A stretch of 64,000 bases of DNA from Bdellovibrionales bacterium (GCA_016786465.1 JAEUWC010000020.1:1-64000), one strand, 5' to 3'. Positions 24,465 through 45,370 are shown, counted from the first letter of the stretch. The notes: generated by a model not told the origin, from the letters alone. Numbers and translations: made by a program.

Positions 24465-24467
24465 AAA

Positions 24468-28265: not shown

Positions 28266-28735
28266 GACAGTTTCTCCAGGATCTGATCCATCTTCTGGGT
28301 CGTCAGATTCTCGTGATAATCATCGTTCAGCATCATGGCTGGTGCGGTGCCACAGGCACCCAGACATTCTTCTTCGTACAAAGTGAACTTGCGATCTGCC
28401 GTGGTTTCACCCAAACGGATTCCCAGCTTCTTTTCACAGTGTTCGACCAGCCCTTCGGCGCCGCGAAGTGCGCAGGCGACGTTGGTGCAAACCTTAAGGT
28501 GGTATTTCCCAACGGGCTTTAGGTTGTACATCGTATAAAAGCTGGCCACTTCGCGAACCTGGGCCGGGTGAATGCCGATGTGCGCGCCGATTTCTTCCAT
28601 CACATCCGGCGGCAACCAGCCGATTTCTTCTTGGGCGGCATGAAGTGCGGGAAGAAGCAGGGCAACCTTAGTTGGATACCTGGGTTCCAGCTTTTTCATC
28701 CGGTCGTAAAATTTCGTAGACAGAATTTTAGCCAT
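28262..28735 (-). CDS. nuoE: NADH:quinone oxidoreductase subunit E (set 1)
   Basis: 157 residues, a thioredoxin-like subunit holding the N1a [2Fe-2S] cluster. The four ligands lie in CTNVAC and CLGAC. The helical N-terminal half (ALHAAQEEIGWLPPDVMEEI) matches the family. Two bases separate it from nuoD and it overlaps nuoF. Confidence 0.96.
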   Translation of the reverse strand: MAKILSTKFYDRMKKLEPRYPTKVALLLPALHAAQEEIGWLPPDVMEEIGAHIGIHPAQVREVASFYTMYNLKPVGKYHLKVCTNVACALRGAEGLVEHCEKKLGIRLGETTADRKFTLYEEECLGACGTAPAMMLNDDYHENLTTQKMDQILEKLS

Positions 28736-28737
28736 GA

Positions 28738-29994
28738 TTAGCGATCCAATTCTCCGGCGATGATGTTGATACTTCCTAGGGCGGCGACCATGTCACCGAT
28801 CTTTTCGCCTTCCACCATCGGGGTTAACCCCTGGAAGTGCCAAACCGACGGTCCGCGAATTCGCATGCGGTGAGCGCGCGGAGCCCCTTTGCTGACGATG
28901 TAAAAACCGACTTCACCGTTCGCGCCTTCGTTCACGGTATAGGCTTCGCCTTCTGGAACGTCGAAACCCGTCATGAAGAATTTGAAATGGTGAATCAGGC
29001 CTTCCATCGTGTTGTGAACGACGTCTTTGTCGGGAATTCGAACGCGTTTGTCTTCGGTCCAAATCGGTCCCTTTTTCATTTTGTCGCAGCACTGAGCGAT
29101 GATGTTCAGCGACTGCTTCACTTCTTCGATACGAACCAGGTAGCGATCGAATACGTCACCGTTCTTTGCAATCGGTACGTCGAATTCGACATCTTTGTAA
29201 AACATGTTGGGTTGATCGCGACGAAGATCGTGATCAATTCCAGCCGCGCGGGCATTCGGGCCCGAAAAGCTGTACTTCATACAGTCTTCTTTATCGAAGA
29301 CCGCTACGCCCACCGTGCGTTGACGCCAGATCTTGTTGGTGGTCAGAAGTTCATCCATTTCCTGAATGACTTTACGGGTACGCGCAACCCATGCCTTGAC
29401 TTCTTTTTCCCAACCTTCGGGCGCATCGTGCATCATGCCGCCAATGCGGGTGTAAGACGTGGTCAAACGCGCGCCACAAAGCTTTTCAATCAAGGTGTAG
29501 GCTTCTTCGCGTTGGTGAAACCCGTAAAGGAAGAAGGAAAACGCGCCCAAGTCGACGGCGTTAATTCCCAGGCAAATGAAGTGGTCGATCACGCGCGCCA
29601 ATTCACAACAGATCATGCGAAGCCAAACCGTGCGATCAGGAACCTGAATTCCCATCAATCGTTCAACGGCCATCGCATAGGTCACGTTATTGTTCAGTGC
29701 TGAACAGTAATTCAGACGATCGGTATAGACGACGAATTGGTGATAGGTGCGGTTTTCGCCCAACTTTTCTTTAGCTCGGTGGGTGTAACCAAACATGCAG
29801 TACGATTTTTCAATCGTTTCACCATTCAGCTTCGCCACCATGCGAAGTGCTCCGTGCATCGCAGGGTGGGTGGGTCCGATATTGATGATGACCCTTGAAT
29901 CATCCCAAATATCATCGGGATCGTGCGTGATGTTGTAGTGCTGGCTATTTCCCAGCCCTAAGCTTTCCGTAATTTTTTCTGCCCGAGTTTCCAT
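28738..29994 (-). CDS. nuoD: NADH:quinone oxidoreductase subunit D (set 1)
   Basis: 418 residues, the 49-kDa-type subunit that forms the quinone pocket with NuoB. The headgroup ligands expected from structural work on complex I are present: the second His of INIGPTHPAMHGALRM and the Tyr of TDRLNYCSAL. It ends with the typical GSINIIAGELDR. It starts 22 bases after nuoC ends. Confidence 0.97.
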   Translation of the reverse strand: METRAEKITESLGLGNSQHYNITHDPDDIWDDSRVIINIGPTHPAMHGALRMVAKLNGETIEKSYCMFGYTHRAKEKLGENRTYHQFVVYTDRLNYCSALNNNVTYAMAVERLMGIQVPDRTVWLRMICCELARVIDHFICLGINAVDLGAFSFFLYGFHQREEAYTLIEKLCGARLTTSYTRIGGMMHDAPEGWEKEVKAWVARTRKVIQEMDELLTTNKIWRQRTVGVAVFDKEDCMKYSFSGPNARAAGIDHDLRRDQPNMFYKDVEFDVPIAKNGDVFDRYLVRIEEVKQSLNIIAQCCDKMKKGPIWTEDKRVRIPDKDVVHNTMEGLIHHFKFFMTGFDVPEGEAYTVNEGANGEVGFYIVSKGAPRAHRMRIRGPSVWHFQGLTPMVEGEKIGDMVAALGSINIIAGELDR

Positions 29995-30016
29995 GAAAGT
30001 TTCTGCCCTCTGTGGC

Positions 30017-30598
30017 CTAGTCTAAAAGTTTTGGATCGATAGGTTCTGGTGTTGGAAAAAGCTGATAGCCGCGAAGCGGGTAATCCTTACGAAGAGGGTG
30101 TCCCACCCAGCGTTCGTCCATCAAGATGCGACGAAGGTCGGGGTGCCCGGTAAAACGAATTCCAAACATGTCCCAAACTTCGCGTTCTGCCCAGTTCGCG
30201 CCCGGCCACACGTTGACCAGCGTTGGAACTTCTTCGCCTTCGCGAACTTTGCACTTCACCCGAATCCGCGAATGTGACGTGAAAACCGCATACAAGTTGT
30301 AAACCACTTCAAACCTTGGGTCGGATTCTTCGTCCACTGCAGTTAGGTCGGCCAGAAATTCATAGCGGAACCCTTCTTGGTCCTTCATGAACTTCAAAAC
30401 TTCAATGACCTGGTCTTTTTTCACGTAGATCACAGGCACTTCAACTAGATCCACGCCCGGCATTTTGACCGCTTCGATGGTTCCGCCAAACTTTGCCTTC
30501 AGTTCTGCGACCTGTTTCTTCCAAAGGTCTGCGAACTGTTCGCGCATTCCGCCGTAAATCGTCGGTACTGGTGTACGGATGTCTTCGTTGCCGATCAT
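30017..30598 (-). CDS. nuoC: NADH:quinone oxidoreductase subunit C (set 1)
   Basis: 193 residues from the ATG at 30598, which overlaps the nuoB stop (ATGA); the frame is open for 43 more codons upstream but that lies within nuoB. The conserved 30-kDa-subunit block is plain: [20 protein letters not shown], then [17 protein letters not shown]. It is a structural subunit of the peripheral arm. Confidence 0.96.
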
Positions 30599-31113
30599 TG
30601 TGCACCCTGCGCTTTCAATTGGGCGATCTGATTTCGTGCGCGAATCTGTGCGCGCGTCGTTCCCTTCATGATGTCGTCCTGTAAACGAAGTAGGGCGTGA
30701 AGAACGCCTTCCGGGCTTGGAGGACAACCTGGCACAAACACATCCACCGGAATAATCGTGTCGATTCCTTGGGTGACGCTATAGACGTTAAAAATTCCGC
30801 CCGAAGACGCGCAAGCCCCCATCGACATCACCCACTTGGGTTCTGACATTTGGTCATAGATGTTTCGCAATACGGGAGCCATCTTTGCGTTCACGATCCC
30901 AGCGACGATCATCAAATCGGCTTGGCGTGGTGAAAAGCGCATGGCTTCTGCGCCGAAACGTCCGATGTCGTAGTCAGCAGCAAAGGTCGCCATCATTTCG
31001 ATCCCGCAACAACTGGTTCCAAACGGAAGTGGCCAAAGAGCGTTCTTCCGGCCCCAATTGACGAAATCTTCTAAGCGCGTCGTTAAGTAAACTGATGAAC
31101 CGTCTTTACCCAT
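30595..31113 (-). CDS. nuoB: NADH:quinone oxidoreductase subunit B (set 1)
   Basis: 172 residues, carrying the terminal N2 [4Fe-4S] cluster. Ligands: the adjacent Cys pair in [11 protein letters not shown], Cys in [10 protein letters not shown] and Cys in VPGCPPSPE. The [14 protein letters not shown] segment that lines the quinone site is intact. It lies three bases after nuoA. Confidence 0.97.
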
Positions 31114-31116
31114 AGA

Positions 31117-31476
31117 TTAATCCCACTCAAGGGCCCCTTTACGAAGTACGTAGAAATAACCCAGCAGAAGAATGCCGACGAAGACGGCCATTTCCGCCAA
31201 AATAAATGTGCTGACCGAAAGGTATTCTCGAAACACGACTGCCCAAGGAAAAAAGAAAACCGCTTCGACGTCGAAAAGAAGGAAAAGAATCGCGACCAAA
31301 TAAAAGCGAACCGAGATTCGTTGTTTGGCGTCTCCGATCGGGGGAACACCACACTCGAACGGACTATCTTTTTTACGATTGGGAATTCTGGGTCCCAAAA
31401 GATGGGTCAAGAGCAAGACTGCTCCGCCGATGACCGCTCCGATGGTCATCATGACCAGGACTGGTATGTAGTTCAT
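31117..31476 (-). CDS. nuoA: NADH:quinone oxidoreductase subunit A (set 1)
   Basis: 119 residues with three transmembrane helices. The functional loop with its conserved Cys is present (PFECGVPPIGDAKQRISVRF), followed by FYLVAILFLLFDVEAVFFFP and the end motif RKGALEWD. It is the first gene of the canonical operon; the 75-base gap to the second set upstream leaves room for a promoter. Confidence 0.96.
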   Translation of the reverse strand: MNYIPVLVMMTIGAVIGGAVLLLTHLLGPRIPNRKKDSPFECGVPPIGDAKQRISVRFYLVAILFLLFDVEAVFFFPWAVVFREYLSVSTFILAEMAVFVGILLLGYFYVLRKGALEWD

Positions 31477-31551: not shown

Positions 31552-33030
31552 TTACTTCAATTGACGTAGCGAGTCGGTAACCCAAACAAGAATGGGATGC
31601 GTGAAGATACTGAGCACCAAAAGTGGCAGGCCGAAGGAAACGAAAATGGACCATAGGCGTCGCGTCGCGACTCCGTTTTCCGCGACGCGGGCAGTGCTGA
31701 AATCTCCAACTAGCGCAAAACACAGTCTAGAAATCGCAATCCAGCTTAAAGCCCACGAAAAAAGCGCGACCGCGGCCAGAGCACCCCAGTGATGATCCAC
31801 CGCAGCGCCCACCAAAGAAAAGCGGCCAAAGAATCCCCCCAGCGGTGGGATCCCCACAAAGCAACCCAAGAACAGAATTAATGCGGCGCTTTCGCCTGTG
31901 TATTTGCGAAGCATTCCTTTCCATTCATCGATCTGATCTGTCGATGTTTCGTCCACGAAACGGGCGATGACAAAGTAACAACCCGAAAGGGCAAAAAGTT
32001 CGACCAACAGGGAAAAAAGCGTCGCGCCCAGCGCCTGGGTGTCCAAGACCAAAAGCCCCAGCAAAACAAATCCTGTTTGCGACACCACCAAGGAACCCAA
32101 AAGCCTTCTAGCCGAATTCTGGCGAACCGCCAGAACCGAACCAAAGACCAGGCTCAAGCCCGCAACCCAAGCCAAAATCTGTGGCCAAGGCAGCGCTTCC
32201 CAAGGGGTCCAAGCCGACGAAGTTTCATTATAGTTTGAAAACAAAGTGATCCAGATTCGAATCGCTGCCGAAAACCCGCCCACGCGTGTCGCCGTCGCCG
32301 CAAATGAAGAAATCGGCGTCGGAACACCCTGAAGAACGTCGGGCGCCCAGGTAAAACTGGGGAACGCCGCGAACTGAAAGCAAAGTCCGGAAGACAACAA
32401 AGCAAAAGAAGCCCAGGCCGAAAGCTTATCCAACGGATTCTTCTGCAGGGTTTCTCGAATCAAACTGAGCTGCGTTTGTTCAGTTGCCGCAAAAAGAACC
32501 AATACCCCCAACGCAAAGAGGACCGAAGCCAGCATCGAAAATCCAAGGAACTTGAACGACGCTTCAGTTGAAGAAACATTTCGAACCCCAAACGAACCCA
32601 AGAAATAAATCAAAGCGTTCGAAAGCTGAAATGCGACCCAGGTCAGAACCAAATCATTCGAAGCCGCAATCAAAGAATACGCCGCTGTGGATGCCACCAA
32701 GAAAGCCAGAAGTTCCGTCTTTCTTTCTGCAGGCACTTCTTTGGATCGGGTCACGTGAATCGTGGCCAACCCGGTCAGTACGATAAAGAAAAGCCGAAAG
32801 AACGTCGTCAGAGGATCAATCCAAATGACCCCGGAAAATGCGGATTTAATCTGAGGACCAAATCCCGCCGTCGCTAGAATCGTCTGAATAGCCGCACCCA
32901 AAAGGCCCAGAACCGCCGTCGCCGTGACCAAGCGGTAGCGTTCGCCGTAGTAGCCAATTTCGCTAAAAATCAGTCCGCCCACCGTGAAGGCCAAGAAAAG
33001 TTCGGGCAGTATGGCAATGAAATCTTCCAT
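31552..33030 (-). CDS. nuoN: NuoN-like subunit of second complex I set (divergent)
   Basis: 492 residues, about fourteen transmembrane helices. It aligns without gaps to the set 1 NuoN at the key sites, but the catalytic residues differ. SNDLVLTWVAFQLSNALIYF has Gln where set 1 has the TM5 Glu (FIALELMS). LCFQFAAFPSFTWAPDVLQG has Gln for the TM7 Lys and Phe for the His. FAATATRVGGF has Arg for the TM8 Lys. Fold and length are preserved, so the protein is under constraint but should not translocate protons in the known way. Last gene of the second set, 44 bases after nuoM2. Confidence 0.85.
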   Translation of the reverse strand: MEDFIAILPELFLAFTVGGLIFSEIGYYGERYRLVTATAVLGLLGAAIQTILATAGFGPQIKSAFSGVIWIDPLTTFFRLFFIVLTGLATIHVTRSKEVPAERKTELLAFLVASTAAYSLIAASNDLVLTWVAFQLSNALIYFLGSFGVRNVSSTEASFKFLGFSMLASVLFALGVLVLFAATEQTQLSLIRETLQKNPLDKLSAWASFALLSSGLCFQFAAFPSFTWAPDVLQGVPTPISSFAATATRVGGFSAAIRIWITLFSNYNETSSAWTPWEALPWPQILAWVAGLSLVFGSVLAVRQNSARRLLGSLVVSQTGFVLLGLLVLDTQALGATLFSLLVELFALSGCYFVIARFVDETSTDQIDEWKGMLRKYTGESAALILFLGCFVGIPPLGGFFGRFSLVGAAVDHHWGALAAVALFSWALSWIAISRLCFALVGDFSTARVAENGVATRRLWSIFVSFGLPLLVLSIFTHPILVWVTDSLRQLK

Positions 33031-33045
33031 CGGGCTTCAATTCAG

Positions 33046-33067
33046 ACCGAGCGCGATTCGGCTCGGT
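33046..33067 (-). repeat. Intercistronic hairpin between nuoM2 and nuoN2
   Basis: ACCGAGC (33046-33052) and GCTCGGT (33061-33067) form a perfect 7-bp stem with an 8-base loop in the only sizeable gap within the downstream half of the second set. No T-run follows, so processing, stability or attenuation are likelier than full termination. Confidence 0.6.
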
Positions 33068-33074
33068 TGATCTC

Positions 33075-34580
33075 CTACTTAATTGTTGAAAGCAAAGTGA
33101 GAACGGTTGGGCGGATCAAGTCGATCAGGGGCTTTGGATAAATCCCGAACCAGATGACCAAAAAGACCAGCGGTAAAAGGTAAAGCTTTTCTCGAAAATT
33201 CAAGTCTTCCATGACCGAGGAATCTTGAGCCTTCCCCAGAAAAACGTGACGATACATGGTAAAAAAGTAGAAGGTCGCCATGAAGAACGCGCCCACGGTC
33301 ACCACGACTGCAATCGGGTGAACAGAATAACTTCCCATCACCAAAAGTGAATGTCCGATGAAACCTGAAACGCCGGGAAAACCCAGAAGTGTCCCGGTCA
33401 TGATCGCTGCCACAACCGCTACACCCGGCGCCTGGACTGCAATTCCACCCAATGTTCCCGTGACTGTTGTTCCAGTTCCTTCCTTAAGAAAGTCAGTAGA
33501 TCCCTTTCTTTCGTTCAAGACATTGATGAAAAGTCCGAAGCCAGCGATTCCCAGCCCCAGCGACAAAAGCTGGAAGACCGCGCCAACGATGCCCACTGAA
33601 TTCAGGGATCCATAACCCACAAGCGCAATTCCCACTTCGCCGATACAAACAAACGATAGCAGGGTTCGAAGATTCTTTTGCGAAAGTGCTCCCAGTCCTC
33701 CGGCAATCAAATTCAAAAGACCCACCGCCACGATTCCCTGCGATGTCGCGGAAATCGTTTCAGGAAAAAGGGAAAACGAAAGCTTCACAAAAAGGTAGCT
33801 GGCTACCGCGGTCATGACTGACGAAACCGCGACGAAAACCGAAAGGGGCGATTGTTGCGCAAAAACCGTAAACCACCCGTGAAGCGGCCAGATCGGCGTG
33901 CGAAGCGCCAATCCTAAGCTCATCAGGCTGAACGCCAGCAGCGGAACCGGCAGATCCCAGTCCAAAAAGTGAAAGGTTTTTCCTGCGAACTTTCCTCCGG
34001 CCAGTTCCTTTAGTGAAAACGTGTGGGGTTCAAAGGAATAGTAAATCAGAATCAACGCACCAAAGAAGAAGGCGTTTCCAATCGCTGAAACCACAAGCGT
34101 TCTAAAGGATGCAGATTCACGGTCGTCTCCTCCCCAGATTCCAATCAGGAAGTACATCGGTACTGCACTTAGCGCCCAGAAGAAGAAGACCAAGAAAAGA
34201 TCCTGCGCGCAGACGGCCCCTAAAAGGGATGCCTGAAGAATCAAGAAAAGCGCGTGCATCCCGGCGACACCCTTTTTTTGCTTCCATTCTGCGGCGATCA
34301 AAACGGGCATGACCCACGAAATCAAAAGAACCAAAAGTGCATTCAATCCATCCATTCCGACTTCGTAGGTGATCGAATAGGACCCAACCCATGGAAGAAT
34401 TTCTACTGCTTGAAGATCACTTACCGCCGGGTCCATCCCCAGAATCAACGCTGTTCCGCAACATGCACTTAAGATGCTTGCAGCAAGCGCCGCCCATTTT
34501 CCCCGCCCCGGAAGAAAAATCTGAGAAATCGCACCCAAGAAGGGCAGAAAAATCATCCAGCTGATTAGGTTCAAACTCAT
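33075..34580 (-). CDS. nuoM: NuoM-like subunit of second complex I set (divergent)
   Basis: 501 residues. The subunit identity is clear from PMYFLIGIWGG, TPIWPLHGWF and the overall helix pattern. Key residues are changed relative to set 1: FFFWALSAVPMYFLI has Ala for the TM5 Glu (FWEAMLIPMYFLI), GLALRTPIWPLHGW has Arg for the TM7 Lys, the LPDAH motif is gone and the TM8 Lys position reads Ala in VMTAVASYLFV. It overlaps nuoL2 by ATGA. A membrane-arm structural role is inferred. Confidence 0.87.
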   Translation of the reverse strand: MSLNLISWMIFLPFLGAISQIFLPGRGKWAALAASILSACCGTALILGMDPAVSDLQAVEILPWVGSYSITYEVGMDGLNALLVLLISWVMPVLIAAEWKQKKGVAGMHALFLILQASLLGAVCAQDLFLVFFFWALSAVPMYFLIGIWGGDDRESASFRTLVVSAIGNAFFFGALILIYYSFEPHTFSLKELAGGKFAGKTFHFLDWDLPVPLLAFSLMSLGLALRTPIWPLHGWFTVFAQQSPLSVFVAVSSVMTAVASYLFVKLSFSLFPETISATSQGIVAVGLLNLIAGGLGALSQKNLRTLLSFVCIGEVGIALVGYGSLNSVGIVGAVFQLLSLGLGIAGFGLFINVLNERKGSTDFLKEGTGTTVTGTLGGIAVQAPGVAVVAAIMTGTLLGFPGVSGFIGHSLLVMGSYSVHPIAVVVTVGAFFMATFYFFTMYRHVFLGKAQDSSVMEDLNFREKLYLLPLVFLVIWFGIYPKPLIDLIRPTVLTLLSTIK

Positions 34581-36565
34581 AGAAGACCTCGTGTGACGAT
34601 CAGGGCCACCACCAAGGTGATCCCCGCAAAAAGGGAAAGGTACCAGTACTGCTGAAGCTTACCGCCTTGGATTCTTTGAACGGCCCAAGCCGCGCCCGCG
34701 AATCCCCGCGCCGTGCTCCATTCGATTCGCTTTCGAAGTTCCGAATCCGCACGTCCAAAACCCTGACCCAAAATTCGTAAGACCCATTTTGTGGCGCCGG
34801 GAATCGACTTCTTCCACAGAAACCCGTCGATCAAGTTTTCAACTGCTGAACCGAAGCGAACTAAAAGATTCATCAGTCCGTTACCCAGGCGGTCCATTCC
34901 AATTTGTTCAGAAATGAACCCGGCAAAGCGCGGGGATGACTGGACCCATTTTTCAAAGCGATCGGGGTTTCCACGAGTCATCCAGTAAGAAATCGCGAAA
35001 CTGAGAACGAAGACGCCCCAGTAGACGCCCATTCCTTCTGCGGAATTGGCGTCAAGCTGGATACTTTTTTGGCCAAAAAGTTGGTCCAAAAGCGAAACTG
35101 AAACCTGATCCATAAGGCCCGGAACAATTTCGCCGGTCATGGCCCCGGTCCAAATCCAAGCCATTCCCAAGATAAACAGGTAGAAAGGGCCCAGAGCCGT
35201 CATCCACTTTACGTAAACCGGCGCCGGCGCACCCGAAGCGGCTGGCTTGCTTCCAAAGTTCATCCGAAAGCCGCAGATGGCAACCATAAGGTGGGCCACT
35301 GAAAAGAAAGCCACGGCACCCCATCCATCTGACGCCAGAATCGCAAGGTAAGATTTTAGGAAACCCGGTGATGAAACAAAGCCAAAGAAGCCGGCAATCA
35401 GAAGACCGGAAATAAAAAGTGCGACCGTTGAAAAGGTTTCAGACGAAACCCGTGAACTGTCGGGTTCTGCGGTGGCCACTGACGAAAAGGAAAGGACCAT
35501 CGCGGCTGCCAAAGCAATCAGATAGGCCCCTAAAAGAATCGATGCCGTGATCCAAGCACTGGAAAAGAATCCCCCGGCCATGCCCAAACTAAGGACTGCC
35601 GCCATGGTCTGAAGAAAGTAAGCTTCCTTCTTCAGTTGCGACATCGCGGAAAGTGCCAAAAGAAATGCCGACGAAAGACAAACCCAACCCATCCAATGAG
35701 AAACACCGATTCCACGAAAAAGCGGATCCAGTCGAACCAAGGTCATCATCGCTACCAGAGAAGGAAGGACCACCCCAAAAAGGGTCCTTTTCACCAGTGA
35801 CTGGCGGCTGTTCATTTGGGACCATCCCAACCACGGAAAACCCCCAGACAAGAACAAAGTGCCCATCAACAAAAAGACACCGCCCACTTTGACCGCTATG
35901 GCGTTGGGATAGCTATCCAACCACTGAATCAGGCTTTTGTTCCAAGAAAGTGGAATTCCAGAACCGTGAACCATGACTGCGCCCACTACCAGAAGACCCA
36001 GGGCAATTCCTTTTTCCCGAATGAATCGGGTCGCCAAATCGGCTTCGCGTTCCAGTTCCCAATTACTTGAAAATGCGGTCCATCCCGAAAGAATGACCCA
36101 GCTTCCACCCAGTGCCAGCGTCCAGAAGTTTGCGGCGCTGGTGCAAAGAAGAACTCCCATGAAACCCAGAATCAGGGACGCATGCGATTTTTCAGGACGT
36201 TCTTCAAAGTGAAGAATTTCCTGATTGATCAAAAGAAGAAGAAAAATGATCGTCGCCAGACTCCAGACGGCCAGTTGGAATGGGTCTCGAATGAACGCAA
36301 TCGTCGGTCCCATTGGACCCGCGGCCTTATCTAGGTTTGCAGAATCAACCCAGCTTAAGGCCCAATGACTGACCGACCAACCCGCCTCGATCTGGACGCG
36401 CCAGGAAAGAATCAGGAAGGCCATCTGAACCACCATGAAAATCCAAACCAACCAATCGCCCTTGCGGGAAATTCGATCGCCAAAAAAGAAAAGCGTCAGG
36501 AAGAAAATCCATCCCAGAACAAATCCCGAAAGTGTGAATAGGTTTTCGACAGAAAGCGTTCCCAT
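34577..36565 (-). CDS. nuoL: NuoL-like subunit of second complex I set (strongly divergent)
   Basis: 662 residues, nearly the same length as set 1 NuoL, with many hydrophobic helices and a final single helix (YWYLSLFAGITLVVALIVTR) that matches the lateral-helix anchor. Assignment relies mainly on length, position between nuoK2 and nuoM2 and helix pattern. The FLGWEGVGLCSYLLIG signature is replaced by ALGGSWVILSGWTAF (no Glu), and the LPDAMAGPTPVSALIHA signature is replaced by LGWSQMNSRQSLVKRTL. It starts at an ATG two bases after nuoK2. Confidence 0.75.
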   Translation of the reverse strand: MGTLSVENLFTLSGFVLGWIFFLTLFFFGDRISRKGDWLVWIFMVVQMAFLILSWRVQIEAGWSVSHWALSWVDSANLDKAAGPMGPTIAFIRDPFQLAVWSLATIIFLLLLINQEILHFEERPEKSHASLILGFMGVLLCTSAANFWTLALGGSWVILSGWTAFSSNWELEREADLATRFIREKGIALGLLVVGAVMVHGSGIPLSWNKSLIQWLDSYPNAIAVKVGGVFLLMGTLFLSGGFPWLGWSQMNSRQSLVKRTLFGVVLPSLVAMMTLVRLDPLFRGIGVSHWMGWVCLSSAFLLALSAMSQLKKEAYFLQTMAAVLSLGMAGGFFSSAWITASILLGAYLIALAAAMVLSFSSVATAEPDSSRVSSETFSTVALFISGLLIAGFFGFVSSPGFLKSYLAILASDGWGAVAFFSVAHLMVAICGFRMNFGSKPAASGAPAPVYVKWMTALGPFYLFILGMAWIWTGAMTGEIVPGLMDQVSVSLLDQLFGQKSIQLDANSAEGMGVYWGVFVLSFAISYWMTRGNPDRFEKWVQSSPRFAGFISEQIGMDRLGNGLMNLLVRFGSAVENLIDGFLWKKSIPGATKWVLRILGQGFGRADSELRKRIEWSTARGFAGAAWAVQRIQGGKLQQYWYLSLFAGITLVVALIVTRGLL

Positions 36566-36566
36566 A

Positions 36567-36866
36567 TTAACCTTTGAGATTCTCCAATTCGTCTAAAGTC
36601 GCCTTAGTGCGAAGGTAGAAAAGACGTACTGAAAACGAAAAGCCACCAATCAGCGGAATTACGCCGCCTAAAAGAAAAATCAGGCCCAAAAGCTGCCCTT
36701 TGACCAAGACTTCGGATTCCTTTCCTACAACCACCGCGGCAAGTGCAGCACCCAGTGCCGTGGTTTGAAAGCCTAGAAGAATCCCGAGAATGGTTCGACG
36801 CGTGAGCATCGCAAGGATTCCCAACGAGAAAAGTCCGATCGCAGTCATTAAGGGTGCCTGATTCAT
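36567..36866 (-). CDS. nuoK: NuoK-like subunit of second complex I set (divergent)
   Basis: 99 residues, three hydrophobic helices. A gapless alignment with set 1 NuoK is anchored by the shared Arg-Arg-x-Ile-Leu at the start of TM2 and Gly-Gln before TM3. It shows Gln for the TM2 Glu (LLGFQTTALGAAL against LMCIELMLNAVNL) and Pro for the TM3 Glu (GGVIPLIGG against VAAAESAVG). Both buried carboxylates that carry protons are therefore absent. It overlaps nuoJ2 by four bases. Confidence 0.8.
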   Translation of the reverse strand: MNQAPLMTAIGLFSLGILAMLTRRTILGILLGFQTTALGAALAAVVVGKESEVLVKGQLLGLIFLLGGVIPLIGGFSFSVRLFYLRTKATLDELENLKG

Positions 36867-37411
36867 GGAATGGGTTCCCCTTTGCGGCGCGGACGGGCGA
36901 TGACCCCCGAGGCCACCAAAATCAAGAAAAGTGAAAAACCAAGAAGTTCCAAAGTCAGAAAGTGATGACTGACCATTTCGTCACCCAATAGGTCATTTGC
37001 TGGACGTTTCTGTTCGGTGGGTTCACTTGGTGCGGGAAGTTCCACAACCTTAGGAGCGCGATGAGATTCACGGTAACGGATTGCGTTTTCGATTCCGGAA
37101 TAGATGAAGTAACCCATCACGGCAACCGTCACTAAACCCACCACCTTCTTCACGATGGCTTTGCGATCTTCGTCGTTGGATTCGGAACGAAATTCACCAA
37201 ACATCACCGAATAAAAGACGAATCCAATGGTGGTCGTTGTCGAAATAATCCAGACCGTGACGGCCAAGAATTCAGACCCCAAGTCTAAAGCGACCCCGCC
37301 CATTCCCAAACCACAGACCCAAAGAGCCAAAATGGCGCGACGAATATCGTGTGTCCAAGATGAAATCAGCGCCGAAACCAAGGTGACTGCGCAACAGATC
37401 CAAGTGATCAC
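36863..37411 (-). CDS. nuoJ: NuoJ-like subunit of second complex I set (divergent)
   Basis: 182 residues with about five hydrophobic helices, the last being FLTLELLGFSLFLILVASGV, very close to the equivalent TM5 of set 1 (LPFELTSVLLLVGIVGSV). The TM3 hinge motif VYAGAIMVLF is replaced by WIISTTTTIGF, so the Tyr and Gly of the pi-bulge are lost. It starts with GTG at 37411, overlapping the nuoI2 stop (GTGA). Confidence 0.75.
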   Translation of the reverse strand: MITWICCAVTLVSALISSWTHDIRRAILALWVCGLGMGGVALDLGSEFLAVTVWIISTTTTIGFVFYSVMFGEFRSESNDEDRKAIVKKVVGLVTVAVMGYFIYSGIENAIRYRESHRAPKVVELPAPSEPTEQKRPANDLLGDEMVSHHFLTLELLGFSLFLILVASGVIARPRRKGEPIP

Positions 37412-37947
37412 AGAACCACCTCGCCATCATGTTCTTCTTCTTGCCGGGCCTTTGCCCACTTCACCCTTTGTTCTTGGGTGACGCGTCCACGACCAAAGCT
37501 GGCGACCAAATCCGTTGACGCATAGACCGCACTTTCAAATTGATGACTGTGAATCAAGGACTGGGGCTGACAAACTTCAACGCAAAGACCACAGAAAGTG
37601 CAGCGTGCGGAATCAATGTCGAACACGGATACCCAGACTTTCTGAGAATCGGGTCCCTTTTCATTTTCAACGGTGATGCATTTAACCGGACAAATCTGTT
37701 CACAGTCTCGGCAACCCGTGCACCGTTCAATGTCGTTAAAAAGAAGACCCCTGGATCGTGCTGGTAGATCTTCTGGCGTTTTAGATGAAACCGGGTCTGG
37801 GTACTGTTCCGTGACTTCCTTTCTTAATTCACCTGACTTGAAACCCACCAGGTACGGAAGTGAAGTCTTTACCGACCCTAGAACCGACGATAATCCCCGG
37901 AAAACAGCTTTCAGATACTGGGCTAAACCCGAAAAAACGGAAATCAA
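37408..37947 (-). CDS. nuoI: NuoI-like ferredoxin subunit of second complex I set
   Basis: 179 residues if started at the TTG at 37947, which overlaps the nuoH2 stop (TTGA) and has GGAGG six bases upstream; a TTG at 37983 is open but has no such signal. Both [4Fe-4S] ligand sets are complete: IERCTGCRDCEQICPVKCI and ARCTFCGLCVEVCQPQSL (Gln before the Pro in the second). Electron transfer through clusters equivalent to N6a/N6b should therefore work, in contrast with the damaged proton path of the membrane subunits. Confidence 0.9.
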   Translation of the reverse strand: MISVFSGLAQYLKAVFRGLSSVLGSVKTSLPYLVGFKSGELRKEVTEQYPDPVSSKTPEDLPARSRGLLFNDIERCTGCRDCEQICPVKCITVENEKGPDSQKVWVSVFDIDSARCTFCGLCVEVCQPQSLIHSHQFESAVYASTDLVASFGRGRVTQEQRVKWAKARQEEEHDGEVVL

Positions 37948-39038
37948 GGTGACCCTCCGTTCTTTGCGGTCCAAAATGCCCAAATCGCAGTACCTGCAAG
38001 TGCTGCCAACGAAAGCGGGCTAAGAACTTTCCAAGACAAATCCGTGATCTGATCGGAACGAATCCGTGGTGTCACACGCGCCAAAATCGACACGAAAATC
38101 ATCAGCCCAAAAGTCTTCATCAGAAGCAGAACGGATTCGACCATTTGGATGGCAAAGCCTGAAGTGTTCTCGGTTAGCCAGGCTTGCACACCATCGGGAA
38201 CTTCCCAACCACCTAAGAAAAGCACCGCAGTGATCGTTGCCCAAAGAAAGAATCCGTAGTGACGTCCCAGCCGAAAAAGGGCCAGCTGGGTGCCGTGAAG
38301 GTGGGATGAAACGCCCCCGTGAATATCCTGAACGGAAAGTCCTCCGTCAAACGGAGCGATTCCCATCACAACCAAACCACTGGCTAGGAAGCAGAAAAAT
38401 GAAATTGGCTCGAACGGGCTATCAAAAACACCCCAAGCTAGAATTCCCGCGCCCTGGGAATCCGCAATGTCGCTCCAGAAAAAACTTCCCGCACGAACCC
38501 CGACCGCAATTAAAGCCGCGATCGCGGGCAGGGCCCCGGCCAATGCTTGTGAAGCCGCGCGAATTCCACCAAACCAACCCGGAATCGACTTTTGGCTTAG
38601 CCCCAAAAGCATCGTTCCCATCGCAATGACCAGTGACGCCCAAAACGGAAGAAACGCGCTCATTTCGGTGTTGATCAAAAGAAGCAAGGATCCCAAAGGA
38701 AGAACAGCGACGGTCGAATAAAGCGCCATCGTATGAAGACCCAGCCAGATCTTTTCGTTCATCCCCAGCTTCGAATCGACCTGTTTCTGAAGCAGTTTCA
38801 CCAAATCGGCAAATGGCTGAAGAAGTCCCAGGGGTCCTACGCGGTTAGGTCCGACGCGCGCCTGAAGATCGGCGCCGACTTTTCTAGCTAAATAATTCAC
38901 CGCCGCGCCGCTGGGTACGACCACCAAGGTGTAAACCAAGGACAAGACCAAAACGGCTACGACCGATTCCGGCAAGAAATCGGGAAGTCCAATGATCTGC
39001 TTCCACTTTTCTGCCCAGTGGTTTGCTTCAGGTGTCAT
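37944..39038 (-). CDS. nuoH: NuoH-like subunit of second complex I set (divergent)
   Basis: 364 residues with about eight transmembrane helices. The N-terminal signature is well kept (LQARVGPNRVGPLGLLQPFA). The acidic-axis segment is not: set 1 FAETNRLPFDLPEGESEIVA reads LVVMGIAPFDGGLSVQDIHG here, and HLEYSSMKF reads SHLHGTQLA. Five of six glutamates are replaced and one is Asp. The ATG overlaps the nuoD2 stop (ATGA). It should still be able to build a quinone-chamber-like fold. Confidence 0.87.
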   Translation of the reverse strand: MTPEANHWAEKWKQIIGLPDFLPESVVAVLVLSLVYTLVVVPSGAAVNYLARKVGADLQARVGPNRVGPLGLLQPFADLVKLLQKQVDSKLGMNEKIWLGLHTMALYSTVAVLPLGSLLLLINTEMSAFLPFWASLVIAMGTMLLGLSQKSIPGWFGGIRAASQALAGALPAIAALIAVGVRAGSFFWSDIADSQGAGILAWGVFDSPFEPISFFCFLASGLVVMGIAPFDGGLSVQDIHGGVSSHLHGTQLALFRLGRHYGFFLWATITAVLFLGGWEVPDGVQAWLTENTSGFAIQMVESVLLLMKTFGLMIFVSILARVTPRIRSDQITDLSWKVLSPLSLAALAGTAIWAFWTAKNGGSP

Positions 39039-40159
39039 CGGTCGACCTCGGCAATTCCTAGATCCAGGCTTGCAAGAATCACGGGAAGATCTTCCATGCG
39101 GCTTCCGCGAAGAATTTCAGGAAGAATTGCAATCGCGGCCATTGAAGGAACCCGAAACTGGACACGGCTGGGGCGATCGCCTCCTTCGCTGACCAAATGA
39201 CAACCTAGGGTGCCCCGAGGGGATTCGACTTTAATGTACGCTTCACCGGGTTGTGGCTTGACTGGCTTCGACACGGGCTGGCTTAAAAAGGATCCGCCAG
39301 GAATGGATTCAATCACTTGCTTTAGAATGTCTGTACTTTGACTGATTTCGCGAAGGCGAATCAGAAAGCGACTATGTACGTCGCCATTTCCATCATTTTC
39401 AACCAGCACGGGAAAATCCAAAAGCTGGTAACCACTGTAAGGTTCTGACTTTCGCGTATCCGTTGAAAAGCCCGAAGCCCTTGCGTTAGGCCCCGTCAAC
39501 CCATGTGCCAGAATCTGTTCCCGGGAAATCACGCCGATTCCGCGAGATCTTTTCAAGAAAGCGTAATTGAACGAAAAAAGATCGTTGTATTCTTTCAGGC
39601 GAATTTTCAGAACTTCGCAAATATCCAAGACGCGCTCTAAGAATCCGTCAGTCACATCTGCGGTGACACCGCCCAGACGAAAAAAATTCAGTGAAAACCG
39701 CGCGCCTGTTAGAAGCTCAAACTGATCCAGGATTCTTTCACGATCGCGAAGCGCATAGTGAAAAAGGGTTTCGGCCCCCACGGCTTGCGCCATTCTCGCT
39801 AGAAATCCCAGGTGGCAGGAAACCCGATTCAGTTCGTTGACCAATACGCGAATGCTTTGTGCGCGAACCGGAACTGCAATCTCGGCGACTTCTTCGATCG
39901 CAAGCGCAACCGCCATTTCGCCAAAAGACGCCGCTTCTGGATCCAGTCGATCCGCATACATCAATGCCGATGACCAAGGGTGCAGTTCAAACGTCTTTTC
40001 AAGGCTTCGATGAATGAACCCAATTTCTGTTTTCGTTTCGGCGATGACTTCTCCGTCTAGGTTCAAATTCAAACGAAACGGGCCAGGAAGCGCCTGGTGG
40101 TAGGGTCCGATTCCCCAGTACGCCAAATCGGTCGCCAAGGATTCACCGTGAGTGCTCAT
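39035..40159 (-). CDS. nuoD: NuoD-like subunit of second complex I set (quinone ligands missing)
   Basis: 374 residues. The family is clear from LTGARFSLNFFRLGGVTADV, LTGPNARASG, DVHSRFLIRLREI, SPRGTLGCHLVSEG and the last residues LGIAEVDR; there are no NiFe-hydrogenase Cys pairs. The two residues that bind the quinone headgroup in studied complexes are changed: HPAMHG is HQALPG (second His to Pro) and the Tyr of DRLNY is Pro (YADRLDPEAAS). It overlaps nuoC2 by ATGA. Confidence 0.9.
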   Translation of the reverse strand: MSTHGESLATDLAYWGIGPYHQALPGPFRLNLNLDGEVIAETKTEIGFIHRSLEKTFELHPWSSALMYADRLDPEAASFGEMAVALAIEEVAEIAVPVRAQSIRVLVNELNRVSCHLGFLARMAQAVGAETLFHYALRDRERILDQFELLTGARFSLNFFRLGGVTADVTDGFLERVLDICEVLKIRLKEYNDLFSFNYAFLKRSRGIGVISREQILAHGLTGPNARASGFSTDTRKSEPYSGYQLLDFPVLVENDGNGDVHSRFLIRLREISQSTDILKQVIESIPGGSFLSQPVSKPVKPQPGEAYIKVESPRGTLGCHLVSEGGDRPSRVQFRVPSMAAIAILPEILRGSRMEDLPVILASLDLGIAEVDR

Positions 40160-40737
40160 GGTTCGACCCCAAAGGCTGCGCCCATTCCCGTTTCAACCGG
40201 CGGACTGAAGTCGGATCCGTATTCATCCGGGATGCTGTGCCCGACAGGTTTAAAATGTGAAACCCCGTAAAAGGAAGTCGGAAACACGTAGGATTTCCGA
40301 AGCGGGTACCCAATCCAGTCTTCTGGAAGGACGTATCGCCCGGCAATCTGATTCCCATTGAAGACCACGCCAAAAAGGTCTGAAATTTCTTTTTCAAATT
40401 CGCGCGCCATCGGCCAGATCGTCGTGACTGAATCGATCGAAGCCGTAGAATCCGCGTCCTTTGGCGTTAACGATGCTCGAAGGACCAGGCGGGTCGGTGA
40501 ATCCAAATCGCGGATAAAATAGGAAAGAACCAGGGCTTGATTCAATTCCATGGCAGACAAGTTTTCTAGCCAGGTCATCTTGAAGCTCACGTCTTCAAAT
40601 AGTTTTCTTGCGGCGGCACGAATAGACTTTGCTTACACCCAAACGGTCGTGATCTCGGATTTCCCGAAGGGTTGCATTTCCAGGAAACCGGGAAGTTCAA
40701 CGGCTTTAATTTTTCGCTTCAGCTCGTTGATTTCCAA
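40156..40737 (-). pseudogene. nuoC: NuoC-like subunit of second complex I set, interrupted by in-frame TAA
   Basis: A frame of 193 sense-equivalent codons runs from a TTG at 40737, which has AGGAG eight bases upstream inside nuoB2, to the stop at 40156. This is exactly the length of the set 1 NuoC. It is interrupted once, at codon 35, by TAA (40635-40633), with no frame change: ...SEITTVWV, stop, AKSIRAAARKLFEDVSF... Both sides read as NuoC. A restart at the GTG at 40590 or ATG at 40578 would give a 140-144 residue protein holding the conserved block (EKEISDLFGVVFNGNQ, PEDWIGYPLRKSY). Nonsense mutation, read error, re-initiation and read-through are all open. Confidence 0.82.
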
Positions 40738-41191
40738 GAATCTTCTCCTGTAGGGCGATGATGCCGTTCATGATGGCTTCGGGCCGAGGCGGACAGCCGG
40801 GTACATAAATATCCACTGGAATGATGCGATCCACGCCTGGAACTGCCGAATAACTGAATTCCGGCGAAAAAGGACCGCCGCAACTGGCACACGAACCCAG
40901 CGCTAGCACGTAACGGGGTTCAAGCATTGAATCATAGATTTTCTTTAAGTTCGGAACGGCTTTGTAAGAAACCAATCCCGAAATGATCAAAAGGTCGGAC
41001 TGACGTGGGTCGGGCTGCGGAATGGCCCCGAAGCGTTCCAAGTCATAACGAGCGCCCATGGTTTGCAGAAGTTCGTCTGCACAACATCCCGATCCGGTCG
41101 AAGTAAACCAAAGGGATCCCGCCCTGGACCAATCCAAAAGTTTCCCAATCGTAGAAAGGTAGATGCCGCTGACGGCGCTACTTGCGCTCAT
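40706..41191 (-). CDS. nuoB: NuoB-like Fe-S subunit of second complex I set
   Basis: 161 residues from the ATG at 41191, preceded by AAGGAA. All four ligands of the N2-type [4Fe-4S] cluster are present: the Cys pair in TGSGCCADELLQT, Cys in ALGSCASCGGPF and Cys in YVPGCPPRPEA. The segment DPRQSDLLIISG is like set 1. It overlaps nuoA2 by 14 bases and nuoC2 by about 30. It is the best conserved member of the set. Confidence 0.93.
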   Translation of the reverse strand: MSASSAVSGIYLSTIGKLLDWSRAGSLWFTSTGSGCCADELLQTMGARYDLERFGAIPQPDPRQSDLLIISGLVSYKAVPNLKKIYDSMLEPRYVLALGSCASCGGPFSPEFSYSAVPGVDRIIPVDIYVPGCPPRPEAIMNGIIALQEKILGNQRAEAKN

Positions 41192-41699
41192 CCAAGTTCC
41201 TTCCTTCGTCGTGAAAAGTTTGAATCCAATCCAAGTCACCCTTCCTGGCCGAATACAATAGGCCCAAGCCTGCGAACCCAACCATGGTCAAAACCGCAAT
41301 CAAAACCTTCTTTTCCTGGGATGAAACCAAGATTCCCACGAGCGGAATCAGAATCACCATCAATGTCAGCAAAAGAACGGCTGCGTTTGCGCTTAAGAAA
41401 AAGCGCGTGTTCATCCGCCTGCCTAAAGCGCCATCCGAACGGTAAACCGTAGGCGAAGAAAACTGCGAGGCTCCGTCTGAACCTGGATTTGAAAAACCCG
41501 AAGAATCCATCCCCCCGACTTCCGCAGTTCCGACCGCGGAATTCACTGACGAAGGATCCATCTTCTGAGCCGCTCCCTTTTTTCGAAGCGACTTGCCGAA
41601 GATTTCTAGGACGAGCGGGATCAACAGCGAACTGATCGCTGACAAAAAGATCACGTAGTACTTGGTCCACCCGCTTGAATCGGGCACCCAGCCGTCCAT
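41178..41699 (-). CDS. nuoA: NuoA-like membrane subunit of second complex I set (unusual loop)
   Basis: 173 residues from the ATG at 41699, which follows GGAGGG; the frame is open further upstream but that part covers the promoter and the start of mfd. Identity is supported by position ahead of nuoB2, three hydrophobic helices and the end motif SARKGDLDWIQ, like RKGALEW in set 1. The first loop is about 60 residues of Ser/Gly/Asn-rich sequence and lacks the conserved Glu-Cys-Gly. The TM2 segment with FDVEA is also absent. The assignment is therefore tentative. Confidence 0.65.
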   Translation of the reverse strand: MDGWVPDSSGWTKYYVIFLSAISSLLIPLVLEIFGKSLRKKGAAQKMDPSSVNSAVGTAEVGGMDSSGFSNPGSDGASQFSSPTVYRSDGALGRRMNTRFFLSANAAVLLLTLMVILIPLVGILVSSQEKKVLIAVLTMVGFAGLGLLYSARKGDLDWIQTFHDEGRNLDERK

Positions 41700-41797: not shown

Positions 41798-44700
41798 ATG
41801 AATTCTTCACAGACTGACACTCCAGCTCTGCCGCTCGAATCCCTTTTCGAAAAACTCGATCGGGGCTCAAAACCGTTCCGCGTTCGTGGGGCGGAAGGTT
41901 CTTCTCGCGCATGGATCTTGGGGCGATGGCTTCTGTCCCAAAAAAGTCCATCCGGCAAAACGGTGGTCGTGATTGTCGATTCAAATGACTCGGTCCAACG
42001 TTGGACCGAGGAACTGGAAAGCGTCCGCGTCATCCAACAGCGGTTGGCATCGTCGTCGAGAACTCTTCGCGTTCTTCCCTTTTTGGGATGGGAGGGGTCC
42101 CCTTACTTAGGAATTTCACCTTCGTGGAAAGTTCGTCACTCGCGGGTAGCAACCCTTGCAAAATCGATGAAACCAAAAACGAACGAAGACCGCGTGATGG
42201 TCGCCAACTGGGAAGCGCTGATGCTACCCACAGTTCCCGTTGAAACTTGGCGAAAGAATCGATTTGAATTTCGGGTCAAAGAATCTTTTTCACGGGAAGA
42301 CGTGCTTCAGCGACTAGCCCATTTGGGCTACCTGCGAATGGATTCCGTCGAAGACCCAGGAACCTTCAGCATTCGCGGTGATCTATTGGATCTTTACATC
42401 CCCGCAGAAGATCAACCTGTCCGCATCGAGTTCTTCGGAGACGAAGTCGAAGGAATTCGCTTTTTTGATCCGACGACTCAAAGGTCTTCCAAAGACCGCT
42501 TGGATTCTATCGAAGTGACCCCTTGCCGCGAAGTTCTGATTCTTGATTCACCTACACTTTTGCGTGAACGATTGAAAGCGGCCGCCGACGAACGCGGGAT
42601 TCACCGAAGCATTCGAGACCCCATCATTCAGTCCATTCACGAGCGGATTTATCTGGATTCATCCGAAATCTGGGCACCCTATGCGTACGCTCAGCCTTCA
42701 TCGGTCTTGGATTATTTGGGCGATGCTTTCGACGTCGTCTGGGATTCGCAGTTTTCGTGTGAACAGTCATTTCAGTCGCGCCTGAAGCGCTACGAAGAAG
42801 ATTTTGAAAAGCCGGTTCCGGGAACTGAATCTCGGTGGATTCTTCCGTCCCCAAAGGAAATCTTCGAATCAGAACTGGTTCGGCGGGATCGCCTGAAATG
42901 GACGGAAAAAACACGCCTTCACTTGGATTCTCTTGAAGTATTGGATGCCCAATCCGCATCCAATACCGAAGACTTCCCCGTCGAAATTCAATCTGCTCGA
43001 ATCTTTTCGGAAGACGTTAAAAAAGACTTCGGTTTAGCCACCACCCGACTTCTTTCCTTGAAAGAAGGAGGGATCCAAGTCGTCCTTACGGCTTCATCGG
43101 CATCCCAGAAAGATCGCCTACAGTTTCTGATCCAGCAAAAACTGGGAAAGGCCGCTTCTGAATTTCCCGTGACGGAAGTTTCATTGTCGTCTGGATTCAT
43201 TTGGCCGTCTGAAAAAGTTGCCCTAGTCCCTGAATCTGATTTTTTTGGACAAAGGGTGAAGAACTCGCTCAAGGCAGCAAAATCCAAGAAAAAAGATTCG
43301 GCCGCAAAGGACTGGTCCGGCGTTCAGAATATAGACGCCCTTCAGGTGGGTGATGCCGTGGTTCACATCACGCATGGAATTGGTCGCTACCAAGGAATTA
43401 CTCGGTTGGGCAGCGATTCCCAAATGGACTTTCTAACCCTGGAATATTCGGGCGGCGACAAACTTTACATCCCAATTTACCGAATCAATTGCGTCCAAAA
43501 GTACCTTGGGTCTGGGCAAGACGCCGTACTGGATAAACTGGGCGGCCAAGGCTTCGAAAAGGCCAAACAAAAAGTTCGAGACGCCGTCAAGAAGCTCGCT
43601 GTGGATTTAGTGAAGGTCTACGCAGAACGCCAGCTTCTAAAAGGAACGAAGTTTTCTGGCCGCGATCCGCTTTTTGCAGAATTCGAAGAACGTTTTCCTT
43701 TTGATGAAACCCCGGACCAGGCACAGGCGGTTGACGATGTGATTGGGGACCTTCAGGCTGGAAAGCTCATGGATCGCCTGGTTTGCGGCGACGTCGGTTA
43801 CGGAAAAACAGAAGTCGCAATTCGCGCCGCATTTAAGGCTGCGTCCGAAGGGAAGCAGGTTGCCGTACTGGTCCCGACGACCATTCTGGCCCACCAACAC
43901 GAGCAATCTTTTCTTTCGCGTTTTAAAGGCTACCCACTTCGAATTGAATCCCTTTCGCGTTTCAAGCCGGCCAAAAAGCAAAAGGAAATTTTAGAGGACC
44001 TGAAGGCTGGAAAGGTCGATGTCGTCATTGGGACACATCGGCTTCTTTCAAAGGACGTCGTTTTCAAAGACTTGGCTTTGGTGATTGTTGACGAAGAACA
44101 CCGCTTTGGGGTCGAGCATAAAGAAAAGCTGAAAGCGATGAAGACGTCAGCCCATGTTCTGACGCTGACTGCGACCCCGATTCCACGGACTTTACACATG
44201 GCTTTAAGTGGTCTTCGCGAAATGAGCTTGATTGCAACGCCGCCGGTAAACCGGCTTCCGATCAAGACTTTTGTCGCCAAACAAGAAGATTCCGTGATCC
44301 GACAAGCAATCGAATCGGAACTTGGACGTGGGGGACAAGTCTTCTATGTCTATAATCGCGTTCAATCGATTTATGAAATTGCCGAAAAGATTCAACGCTT
44401 GGTCCCAGCAGCCAAAGTTGGGGTTGGGCATGGACAAATGGCCGATTCCGAATTGGAAGACGCGATGCTGGCGTTTTACCAGGGTCGAACGAATGTCCTG
44501 GTTTGCACGACGATTATCGAATCGGGGCTGGATGTTCCTTCTGCAAACACTTTGATTGTTCAGCGTGCCGACACCTTCGGTCTGTCGCAACTTTATCAGA
44601 TTCGGGGCCGCGTGGGGCGTGGTCAGAATCGCGCTTTTGCGTACTTTTTGATCCCGGGTGAAACACTTCTTTCCCAGGACGCACAAAAGCGCCTGGAAGT

Positions 44701-45370
44701 TCTGCAGCGGTTTGTCGATCTTGGTAGCGGTTTCAAGATCGCATCGCATGACCTGGAAATCCGGGGTGGAGGGAACTTGCTTGGACCCGAACAGTCGGGA
44801 CATATCGCGATGGTGGGTTTTGAGCTTTATACCCAGCTTTTGGACGAAGCGATTCGACAGCTGAAGCGCGAAGGGGGCCAGAAGGTTCCCGCCCTGGGTG
44901 CCCCTTCCAGCGACGAAACCGAACCCGAAATCAAATGTCCTTTTCCCGCTTTTCTACCCGAAACCTATGTTTCGGATTCGGCGCAACGACTGGTCCTTTA
45001 CCGCCGACTTTCAGCGACCCGTACTTGGGAAGAACTGGACGCGCTGATGGACGAACTCGTGGATCGGTACGGCCCGCTTCCTTACGAAGGGAAGAACCTT
45101 TTTCACATGATCACGCTGAAGCAATTGATGGTGGAACACGGGATGGATTCGTTGACCATCGGGCTGGGCCGGGTTTCGTTAGTGGCCGGTTCACGATCAA
45201 AATTGAATCCGAATCGGGTCGTCGCCATGGTCGCTTCTCGGCCCGAGAAGAATCCGCTGCAGATCCAGATGACCCCCCAGGGAACCAAGCTATCGACCGC
45301 CCTTCCGACTTCGGATCTGGCCCAGGTGCATCATTCGCTTGAAATCCTTCTCAAGTCGCTTTCTGGCTGA
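41798..45370 (+). CDS. mfd: Transcription-repair coupling factor Mfd
   Basis: 1190 residues, full length. It removes RNA polymerase stalled at DNA lesions and recruits UvrA. The UvrB-like N-terminal part contains SIRGDLLDLYIPAEDQPVRIEFFGDEVEGIR (only fragments quoted matter: RGDLLD and IEFFGDEVE). The RNA-polymerase interaction domain starts near residue 518 (GDAVVHITHGIGRYQG). The translocase has Walker A GDVGYGKTEVA near 664, DEEHRF near 765 and ATPIPRTLHMAL, and the TRCF C-terminal domain closes the protein. It heads a plus-strand block that also contains uvrA, its partner in repair. The predicted leader is short and the ribosome-binding site weak. Confidence 0.97.
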   Translation: MNSSQTDTPALPLESLFEKLDRGSKPFRVRGAEGSSRAWILGRWLLSQKSPSGKTVVVIVDSNDSVQRWTEELESVRVIQQRLASSSRTLRVLPFLGWEGSPYLGISPSWKVRHSRVATLAKSMKPKTNEDRVMVANWEALMLPTVPVETWRKNRFEFRVKESFSREDVLQRLAHLGYLRMDSVEDPGTFSIRGDLLDLYIPAEDQPVRIEFFGDEVEGIRFFDPTTQRSSKDRLDSIEVTPCREVLILDSPTLLRERLKAAADERGIHRSIRDPIIQSIHERIYLDSSEIWAPYAYAQPSSVLDYLGDAFDVVWDSQFSCEQSFQSRLKRYEEDFEKPVPGTESRWILPSPKEIFESELVRRDRLKWTEKTRLHLDSLEVLDAQSASNTEDFPVEIQSARIFSEDVKKDFGLATTRLLSLKEGGIQVVLTASSASQKDRLQFLIQQKLGKAASEFPVTEVSLSSGFIWPSEKVALVPESDFFGQRVKNSLKAAKSKKKDSAAKDWSGVQNIDALQVGDAVVHITHGIGRYQGITRLGSDSQMDFLTLEYSGGDKLYIPIYRINCVQKYLGSGQDAVLDKLGGQGFEKAKQKVRDAVKKLAVDLVKVYAERQLLKGTKFSGRDPLFAEFEERFPFDETPDQAQAVDDVIGDLQAGKLMDRLVCGDVGYGKTEVAIRAAFKAASEGKQVAVLVPTTILAHQHEQSFLSRFKGYPLRIESLSRFKPAKKQKEILEDLKAGKVDVVIGTHRLLSKDVVFKDLALVIVDEEHRFGVEHKEKLKAMKTSAHVLTLTATPIPRTLHMALSGLREMSLIATPPVNRLPIKTFVAKQEDSVIRQAIESELGRGGQVFYVYNRVQSIYEIAEKIQRLVPAAKVGVGHGQMADSELEDAMLAFYQGRTNVLVCTTIIESGLDVPSANTLIVQRADTFGLSQLYQIRGRVGRGQNRAFAYFLIPGETLLSQDAQKRLEVLQRFVDLGSGFKIASHDLEIRGGGNLLGPEQSGHIAMVGFELYTQLLDEAIRQLKREGGQKVPALGAPSSDETEPEIKCPFPAFLPETYVSDSAQRLVLYRRLSATRTWEELDALMDELVDRYGPLPYEGKNLFHMITLKQLMVEHGMDSLTIGLGRVSLVAGSRSKLNPNRVVAMVASRPEKNPLQIQMTPQGTKLSTALPTSDLAQVHHSLEILLKSLSG

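Follow-up and report, generated by a model that had tools for sequence, protein, structure and literature searches.

In this study, we analyzed a DNA stretch of 64,000 nucleotides from a Bdellovibrionales bacterium (GCA_016786465.1 JAEUWC010000020.1:1-64000; the whole stretch is hereafter called the window), in which a second set of eleven genes for subunits of respiratory complex I (nuoA2, B2, C2, D2, H2, I2, J2, K2, L2, M2 and N2; set 2) precedes a complete canonical nuoA-N operon (set 1). We found that set 2 retains the ligands of the iron-sulfur (Fe-S) clusters N2, N6a and N6b in NuoB2 and NuoI2, whereas most charges of the proton path have been erased. Judging from the sequences, we would give an even chance to the view that set 2 encodes an Fe-S redox module that is anchored in the membrane, does not pump and has a rebuilt acceptor site, and that probably works alongside canonical complex I.

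Gene content and proton-path residues

The eleven frames of set 2 run from position 41699 to 31552 of the window on the minus strand, overlap or are closely packed, and lie between mfd and canonical nuoA (31476), with a gap of 75 bp between the two sets. An earlier note on this stretch had reported the gene order, the position directly upstream of the 14-gene operon and the lack of nuoE, nuoF and nuoG (the NADH module), all of which we recovered; these three genes were missing from set 2 both in the window and in the relatives inspected, and no dedicated accessory or partner gene was present within the set 2 cluster. Complex I family models (Pfam/NCBIfam) matched nine of the eleven products (NuoB2, C2, D2, H2, I2, J2, K2, M2 and N2). 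NuoA2 and NuoL2 had no Pfam/NCBIfam match, being too diverged for any family model, and were identified by position and by alignment with orthologues in the same slot of other genomes. The features of the locus are listed below; proton-path residues are numbered as in Escherichia coli K-12 NuoA-N, and substitutions are given from set 1 to the set 2 of the window.

nuoA2, 41181..41699, minus strand: 172 amino acids (aa); D79>L, E81>L
nuoB2, 40706..41191, minus strand: 161 aa; four N2 Cys present; RYDLERFG in place of the canonical YDxxRFG..E
nuoC2, 40156..40690, minus strand: in-frame TAA at 40633-40635; possible restart at GTG 40590 (144 aa)
nuoD2, 39035..40159, minus strand: 374 aa; equivalents of Thermus thermophilus His38/Tyr87 are Pro25/Pro74; Arg and His near N2 present
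nuoH2, 37944..39038, minus strand: 364 aa; without the E-channel glutamates (E157>A, E216>L, E218>V, E228>H, E241>R); E220>D
nuoI2, 37408..37983, minus strand: 191 aa; eight cluster Cys present; conserved YPDPVSS segment with a 5-residue insertion
nuoJ2, 36863..37411, minus strand: 182 aa; Y59 lost (Y59>S)
nuoK2, 36567..36866, minus strand: 99 aa; E36>Q, E72>P
nuoL2, 34577..36565, minus strand: 662 aa; six of six key charges lost (E144>S, D178>L, K229>L, K342>A, K399>S, D400>P); fastest evolving of the subunits
nuoM2, 33075..34580, minus strand: 501 aa; E144>A, K265>A and E407>H (lost); K234>R
nuoN2, 31552..33030, minus strand: 492 aa; E133>Q, K217>Q; K158 kept, K247>R, K395>R
canonical 14-gene nuoA-N (set 1), 18072..31476, minus strand: all key residues intact; control and possible partner
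mfd, 41798..45370, plus strand: divergent; upstream border of the locus in all relatives assembled there

The ion pairs and the central and distal residues described in E. coli include NuoM E144/K234, NuoN E133/K217, K247, K399, K395, E407, D400 and NuoK E36/E72 (PMC9271201). We aligned set 2 with set 1, eight ordinary 11-subunit sets of the same phylum, ten membrane-only operons and E. coli; near-versus-far alignments were safe for subunits B, D, H, I, M and N and less safe for A, J, K and L. In the close set 2 orthologues, charge was lost at 19 of the 24 path residues in NuoA, H, K, L, M and N; among the remaining charged positions that set 1 conserves, the figure was 40 of 94 (Fisher p = 0.0024). 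The stripping of the membrane subunits claimed in the earlier note was thus borne out, with charge kept in the window at NuoM K234>R, NuoN K158, K247>R and K395>R, and NuoH E220>D. These retained charges were also found elsewhere: NuoM K234 was Arg in all 29 near and far set 2 orthologues, NuoN K158, K247 and K395 were Lys or Arg in most of them, and NuoH E220 was Asp. Common replacements in set 2 were Glu to Gln in NuoK and NuoN, Lys to Gln in NuoL and NuoN, and His at NuoH E228 in most orthologues.

Apart from rare exceptions, set 1 had the key path residues intact, and so did nearly all controls. Among the eight ordinary 11-subunit sets (L062, L071, L191-L193, L198-L200), which were otherwise nearly intact, seven had Leu or Ile at NuoM K234, an ion-pair partner, and one had Gly at NuoK E72. 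We ruled out that the key residues of set 2 had merely moved to shifted positions, because set 1, E. coli and the ordinary 11-subunit sets line up in multiple alignments that include dozens of orthologues.

In other classes of the phylum we observed membrane-arm-only operons (nuoA H J K L M N; L183-L190, L195 and L196) with intact proton residues, occurring twice in tandem in L188, L190 and L196, and with NuoD homologues elsewhere in these genomes. Their intact residues and the separate NuoD homologues ruled them out as relatives of set 2.

Fe-S ligands, quinone site and stages of reduction

The four cluster Cys of NuoB2 and the eight of NuoI2, already noticed in the window, also persist in near and far sets alike, as well as in family f5 and the class-level relatives. 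The only exception, and the sole change of a NuoB2 cluster Cys among the set 2 copies, was found in G005 (L052), which has C-G-C in place of the tandem CC at the N2 site. The cofactor content of set 2 is deduced from these ligands. In addition, the Arg and His expected near N2 were present in most NuoD2 proteins of family f1.

On the quinone side, His38/Asp139 and Tyr87 of T. thermophilus Nqo4 are thought to protonate quinone (PMC6465577). Alignment of the window NuoD2 to 2fug_4 (E 1e-76) placed Pro25 and Pro74 at the positions of His38 and Tyr87, respectively, and both positions were Pro in most set 2 orthologues. The electron path had previously been described as intact, which holds for the Fe-S ligands but not for the quinone His and Tyr of NuoD2; judged by these residues, the path of set 2 is kept only up to N2, and the quinone site is lost. 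Several motifs near the pocket were nearly invariant in set 2, namely LPGP and DPE in NuoD2, RYDLERFG in NuoB2 and YPDPVSS in NuoI2. From the established positions of the homologous segments it follows that these motifs would line the quinone pocket, and we infer that they may form a rebuilt acceptor site. The predicted structure of NuoD2 (predicted local distance difference test, pLDDT, 69) matched the 49-kDa chains of complex I in its core and was of low confidence at the pocket (pLDDT below 50), and that of NuoL2 was weak (pLDDT 53); neither model was used for mechanism.

The degree of residue loss differed among families. A member of family f2, G035, keeps the NuoD Tyr, NuoM K265 and E407, and NuoN E133, and lacks NuoA D79/E81, the NuoK charges and most charges of NuoL and the E-channel. 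The near sets lack all residues that G035 keeps or has lost. In family f5 the membrane proteins were shortened and barely or not recognized by any model and nuoC2 was absent, while NuoB2, D2 and I2 were still clear; most of the retained NuoM and NuoN charges were also gone in f5 and in the class-level relatives, although residue calls for the membrane proteins of f5, f7 and f8 rest on very low identity and are indicative only. Read from the sequences, these families show the proton pump at stages of dismantling, which is partial in f2 and almost complete in f1, while in f5 little of the arm is left.

Distribution, selection and age

Among 57 genomes of the same order and class, some of them incomplete, about 45 carried orthologues of set 2. 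Hidden Markov model searches and contig reading revealed 36 genomes of the same order with set 2, including that of the window, and further copies or pieces in G009, G023, at least seven family f5 genomes and the class-level relatives G055 and G057. Family f5 seemed at first to lack set 2, but most of its genomes have it in shrunken form; two species alone, G046 (L224) and G048 (L221), have none. In these two species mfd directly adjoins nuoA of set 1, indicating a clean loss, and they offer natural controls for the phenotype of set 2. In G055 (L215, 11480-17465) and G057 (L216, 2515-8675), set 2 contained an extra NuoM-like frame without key residues, a '2M' layout. A scan of named genomes with NuoH2 found no set 2, and one with NuoB2, which was swamped by a motif common to ordinary NuoB, found two relatives, L094 (a groundwater metagenome-assembled genome, MAG, named 'Bdellovibrio sp.') and L095 (a 'Bacteriovoracaceae' MAG).

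The set 2 genes present were collinear in every genome. mfd lay beside set 2 in every genome whose assembly extends more than 200 bp upstream of it (29 genomes), and nuoN2 was followed by nuoA of set 1 wherever the sequence continued, giving a stable slot of mfd, set 2 and set 1. In a tree of subunits B, D and I, set 2 was separate from set 1, from the ordinary 11-subunit sets and from E. coli, and grouped across genera and families, which ruled out a recent duplication of set 1; the tree has long branches (G037, G019 and G024), and its inner details and root are unsafe.

Purifying selection on set 2 is strong. For NuoD2, H2, I2, J2, K2, L2, M2 and N2, the ratio of nonsynonymous to synonymous substitution rates (dN/dS) was 0.02-0.13 in G026-G031 (dS 0.06-0.37), the only close pair with unsaturated dS; most other pairs were saturated. 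Even the shrunken f5 version gave 0.02-0.06 for the B, D, H, I, M-like and N-like proteins (pair G038-G045, dS near 1), and other measurable pairs mostly gave values clearly below 1, constraint being weakest in the distant pair G019-G033. Relative to set 1 of the same genomes, NuoL2 diverged most (2.0-fold) and NuoH2, B2, M2 and N2 least (1.3-fold). Therefore, decay is excluded, and the suggestion of repurposing made in the earlier note, for which neutral dN/dS or absence from relatives would have been damaging, is strongly supported by dN/dS far from neutral and by the presence of the orthologous set in relatives.

As had been stated, ten of the eleven frames in the window are open, nuoC2 being the sole broken one. 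Because most close relatives have Glu at the TAA site, the stop may reflect either an assembly error or a genuine nonsense mutation of one codon, after which translation could restart at GTG 40590. Promoter and terminator scans gave matches no commoner than in shuffled sequence. Directly downstream of canonical nuoN lies a repeat-rich (TPR-like) frame of 1000 aa (window 15055-18057), and frames of similar size follow nuoN in G043 and G009.

Possible function and relation to known systems

We propose that set 2 may be an ancient complex I paralogue that stopped pumping protons and was retained for a redox job. Electrons would enter through NuoI2 and reach N2, from which they could pass to an acceptor other than a canonically bound quinone; alternatively, N2 might act as a redox sensor. 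The membrane arm would now be an anchor rather than a pump. Because the mfd/set 2/set 1 slot is stable and set 2 has no accessory gene of its own, set 2 most likely works beside, and is perhaps bound to, canonical complex I; the conserved adjacency and the lack of a dedicated partner gene fit the idea of a partnership, without proving it. The direction of electron flow, the acceptor and the physical association with set 1 are the least certain steps of this scheme. A broader proposal, to which we would give somewhat less than an even chance, is that set 2 represents a class-wide family derived from complex I in Bdellovibrionota-like bacteria, which would neither pump nor reduce quinone, would keep the Fe-S wire and would have evolved a new active site where canonical complex I places the quinone head group. 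Such a complex-I-shaped oxidoreductase or redox sensor would have left natural stages of arm dismantling preserved in f2, f1 and f5.

Several of these features would also be expected if set 2 were a pseudo-complex, i.e., a partner of canonical complex I that is structural or regulatory rather than catalytic and binds it as a hetero-dimer or through shared modules, with the clusters as structural relics: set 2 stands directly before set 1, set 1 is present wherever the sequence extends, no dedicated accessory gene is found, and quinone and proton residues were lost together. However, relic clusters would not keep their Cys nearly invariant while the membrane arm erodes until it is hardly recognizable, the new motifs around N2 show conservation of the kind seen in active sites, and set 1 does not need set 2, because G046 and G048 keep the former without the latter; we regard this explanation as unlikely, if worth serious attention. 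The preserved Fe-S wire also fits an uncoupled quinone reductase that draws on a ferredoxin-like donor or on the NuoEFG of set 1 and hands the electrons to quinone without pumping, in the manner of a non-pumping alternative dehydrogenase. Ferredoxin is considered the electron source of ordinary 11-subunit enzymes (PMC11238625), and the quinone Tyr is kept in f2 members. Outside f2, however, the presumed quinone-protonating residues are largely replaced, with Pro at the His38 and Tyr87 positions in most copies, and nuoC2 is absent in f5; such a reductase seems distinctly improbable.

It is still harder to sustain that set 2 translocates ions by another route through the retained Lys and Arg of NuoN2 and NuoM2. 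Arg at NuoM K234 in all 29 orthologues, the kept NuoN K158, the Arg or Lys mostly found at K247 and K395, and the low divergence of NuoM2 and NuoN2 relative to set 1 speak for such a route, but the E-channel of NuoH, K and A, which would couple redox chemistry to the pump, is without its charges, NuoL2 is neutral at all six key positions, and most of the retained charges have disappeared in f5 and in the class-level relatives; we consider this route highly improbable. As for decaying junk or an assembly artefact, the in-frame TAA of the window nuoC2 and the loss of set 2 in G046 and G048 are set against open frames in dozens of genomes, conserved gene order and synteny, and low dN/dS, by which this idea is refuted for the family; overall it deserves next to no weight.

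A non-pumping redox module with a rebuilt acceptor site has its own difficulties, and the following points weigh against it. The f2 members G035 and G044 keep the quinone Tyr, as only f2 members do among the copies compared, and G035 also keeps several NuoM and NuoN charges, because of which some set 2 complexes may still reduce quinone. NuoM2 is strongly conserved (mean identity 56%, compared with 66% in set 1) and Lys or Arg residues are kept in NuoN2 and NuoM2, so that some ion conduction may be possible. At the pocket, the structure predictions are too weak to demonstrate cofactor binding, and the adjacency of the two sets could be inherited from an old tandem arrangement.

Set 2 resembles the canonical 14-subunit complex I (NDH-1; E. 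coli, T. thermophilus) in having homologous A, B, C, D and H-N subunits in the same order, the N2, N6a and N6b ligands and the core of the 49-kDa fold, and differs from it in lacking E, F and G, the quinone His and Tyr and most proton-path charges. The ordinary 11-subunit sets have the same eleven genes in the same order, likewise without an NADH module, but where they occur as third sets in this phylum nearly all of their key residues are retained, unlike in set 2. The group 4 [NiFe] hydrogenases and the energy-converting hydrogenase-related complexes (Ehr) belong to the same superfamily, and combine an Fe-S small subunit with a NuoD-like subunit in which no quinone site is obvious. In contrast to the hydrogenases, NuoD2 orthologues have no conserved CxxC (Ni-ligand) motif, and NuoD2 gives far stronger matches to complex I chains (E 1e-76) than to those of hydrogenases (E 1e-41 and 1e-32). 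The 2M-type complex I of Nitrospira and others is another subunit variant, and the set 2 of G055 and G057 shares its two M-like frames; 2M complexes are read as pumping more, whereas set 2 is without the pumping residues. In the open-licence full-text literature we found no account of a complex I paralogue with such losses, although absence there is no proof of novelty. The main text of a recent survey of prokaryotic complex I does not mention Bdellovibrio or paralogues (PMC12361115).

The residues lost in set 2 are those held indispensable in studied complex I. Set 2 may thus be regarded as a natural knock-out series of the proton pump, maintained under strong selection across a bacterial class, which would record which residues go first and suggests that the electron-transfer half of complex I can be valuable without the pump. 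It points to undescribed redox chemistry, or to a regulatory partner of complex I, in relatives of predatory bacteria.

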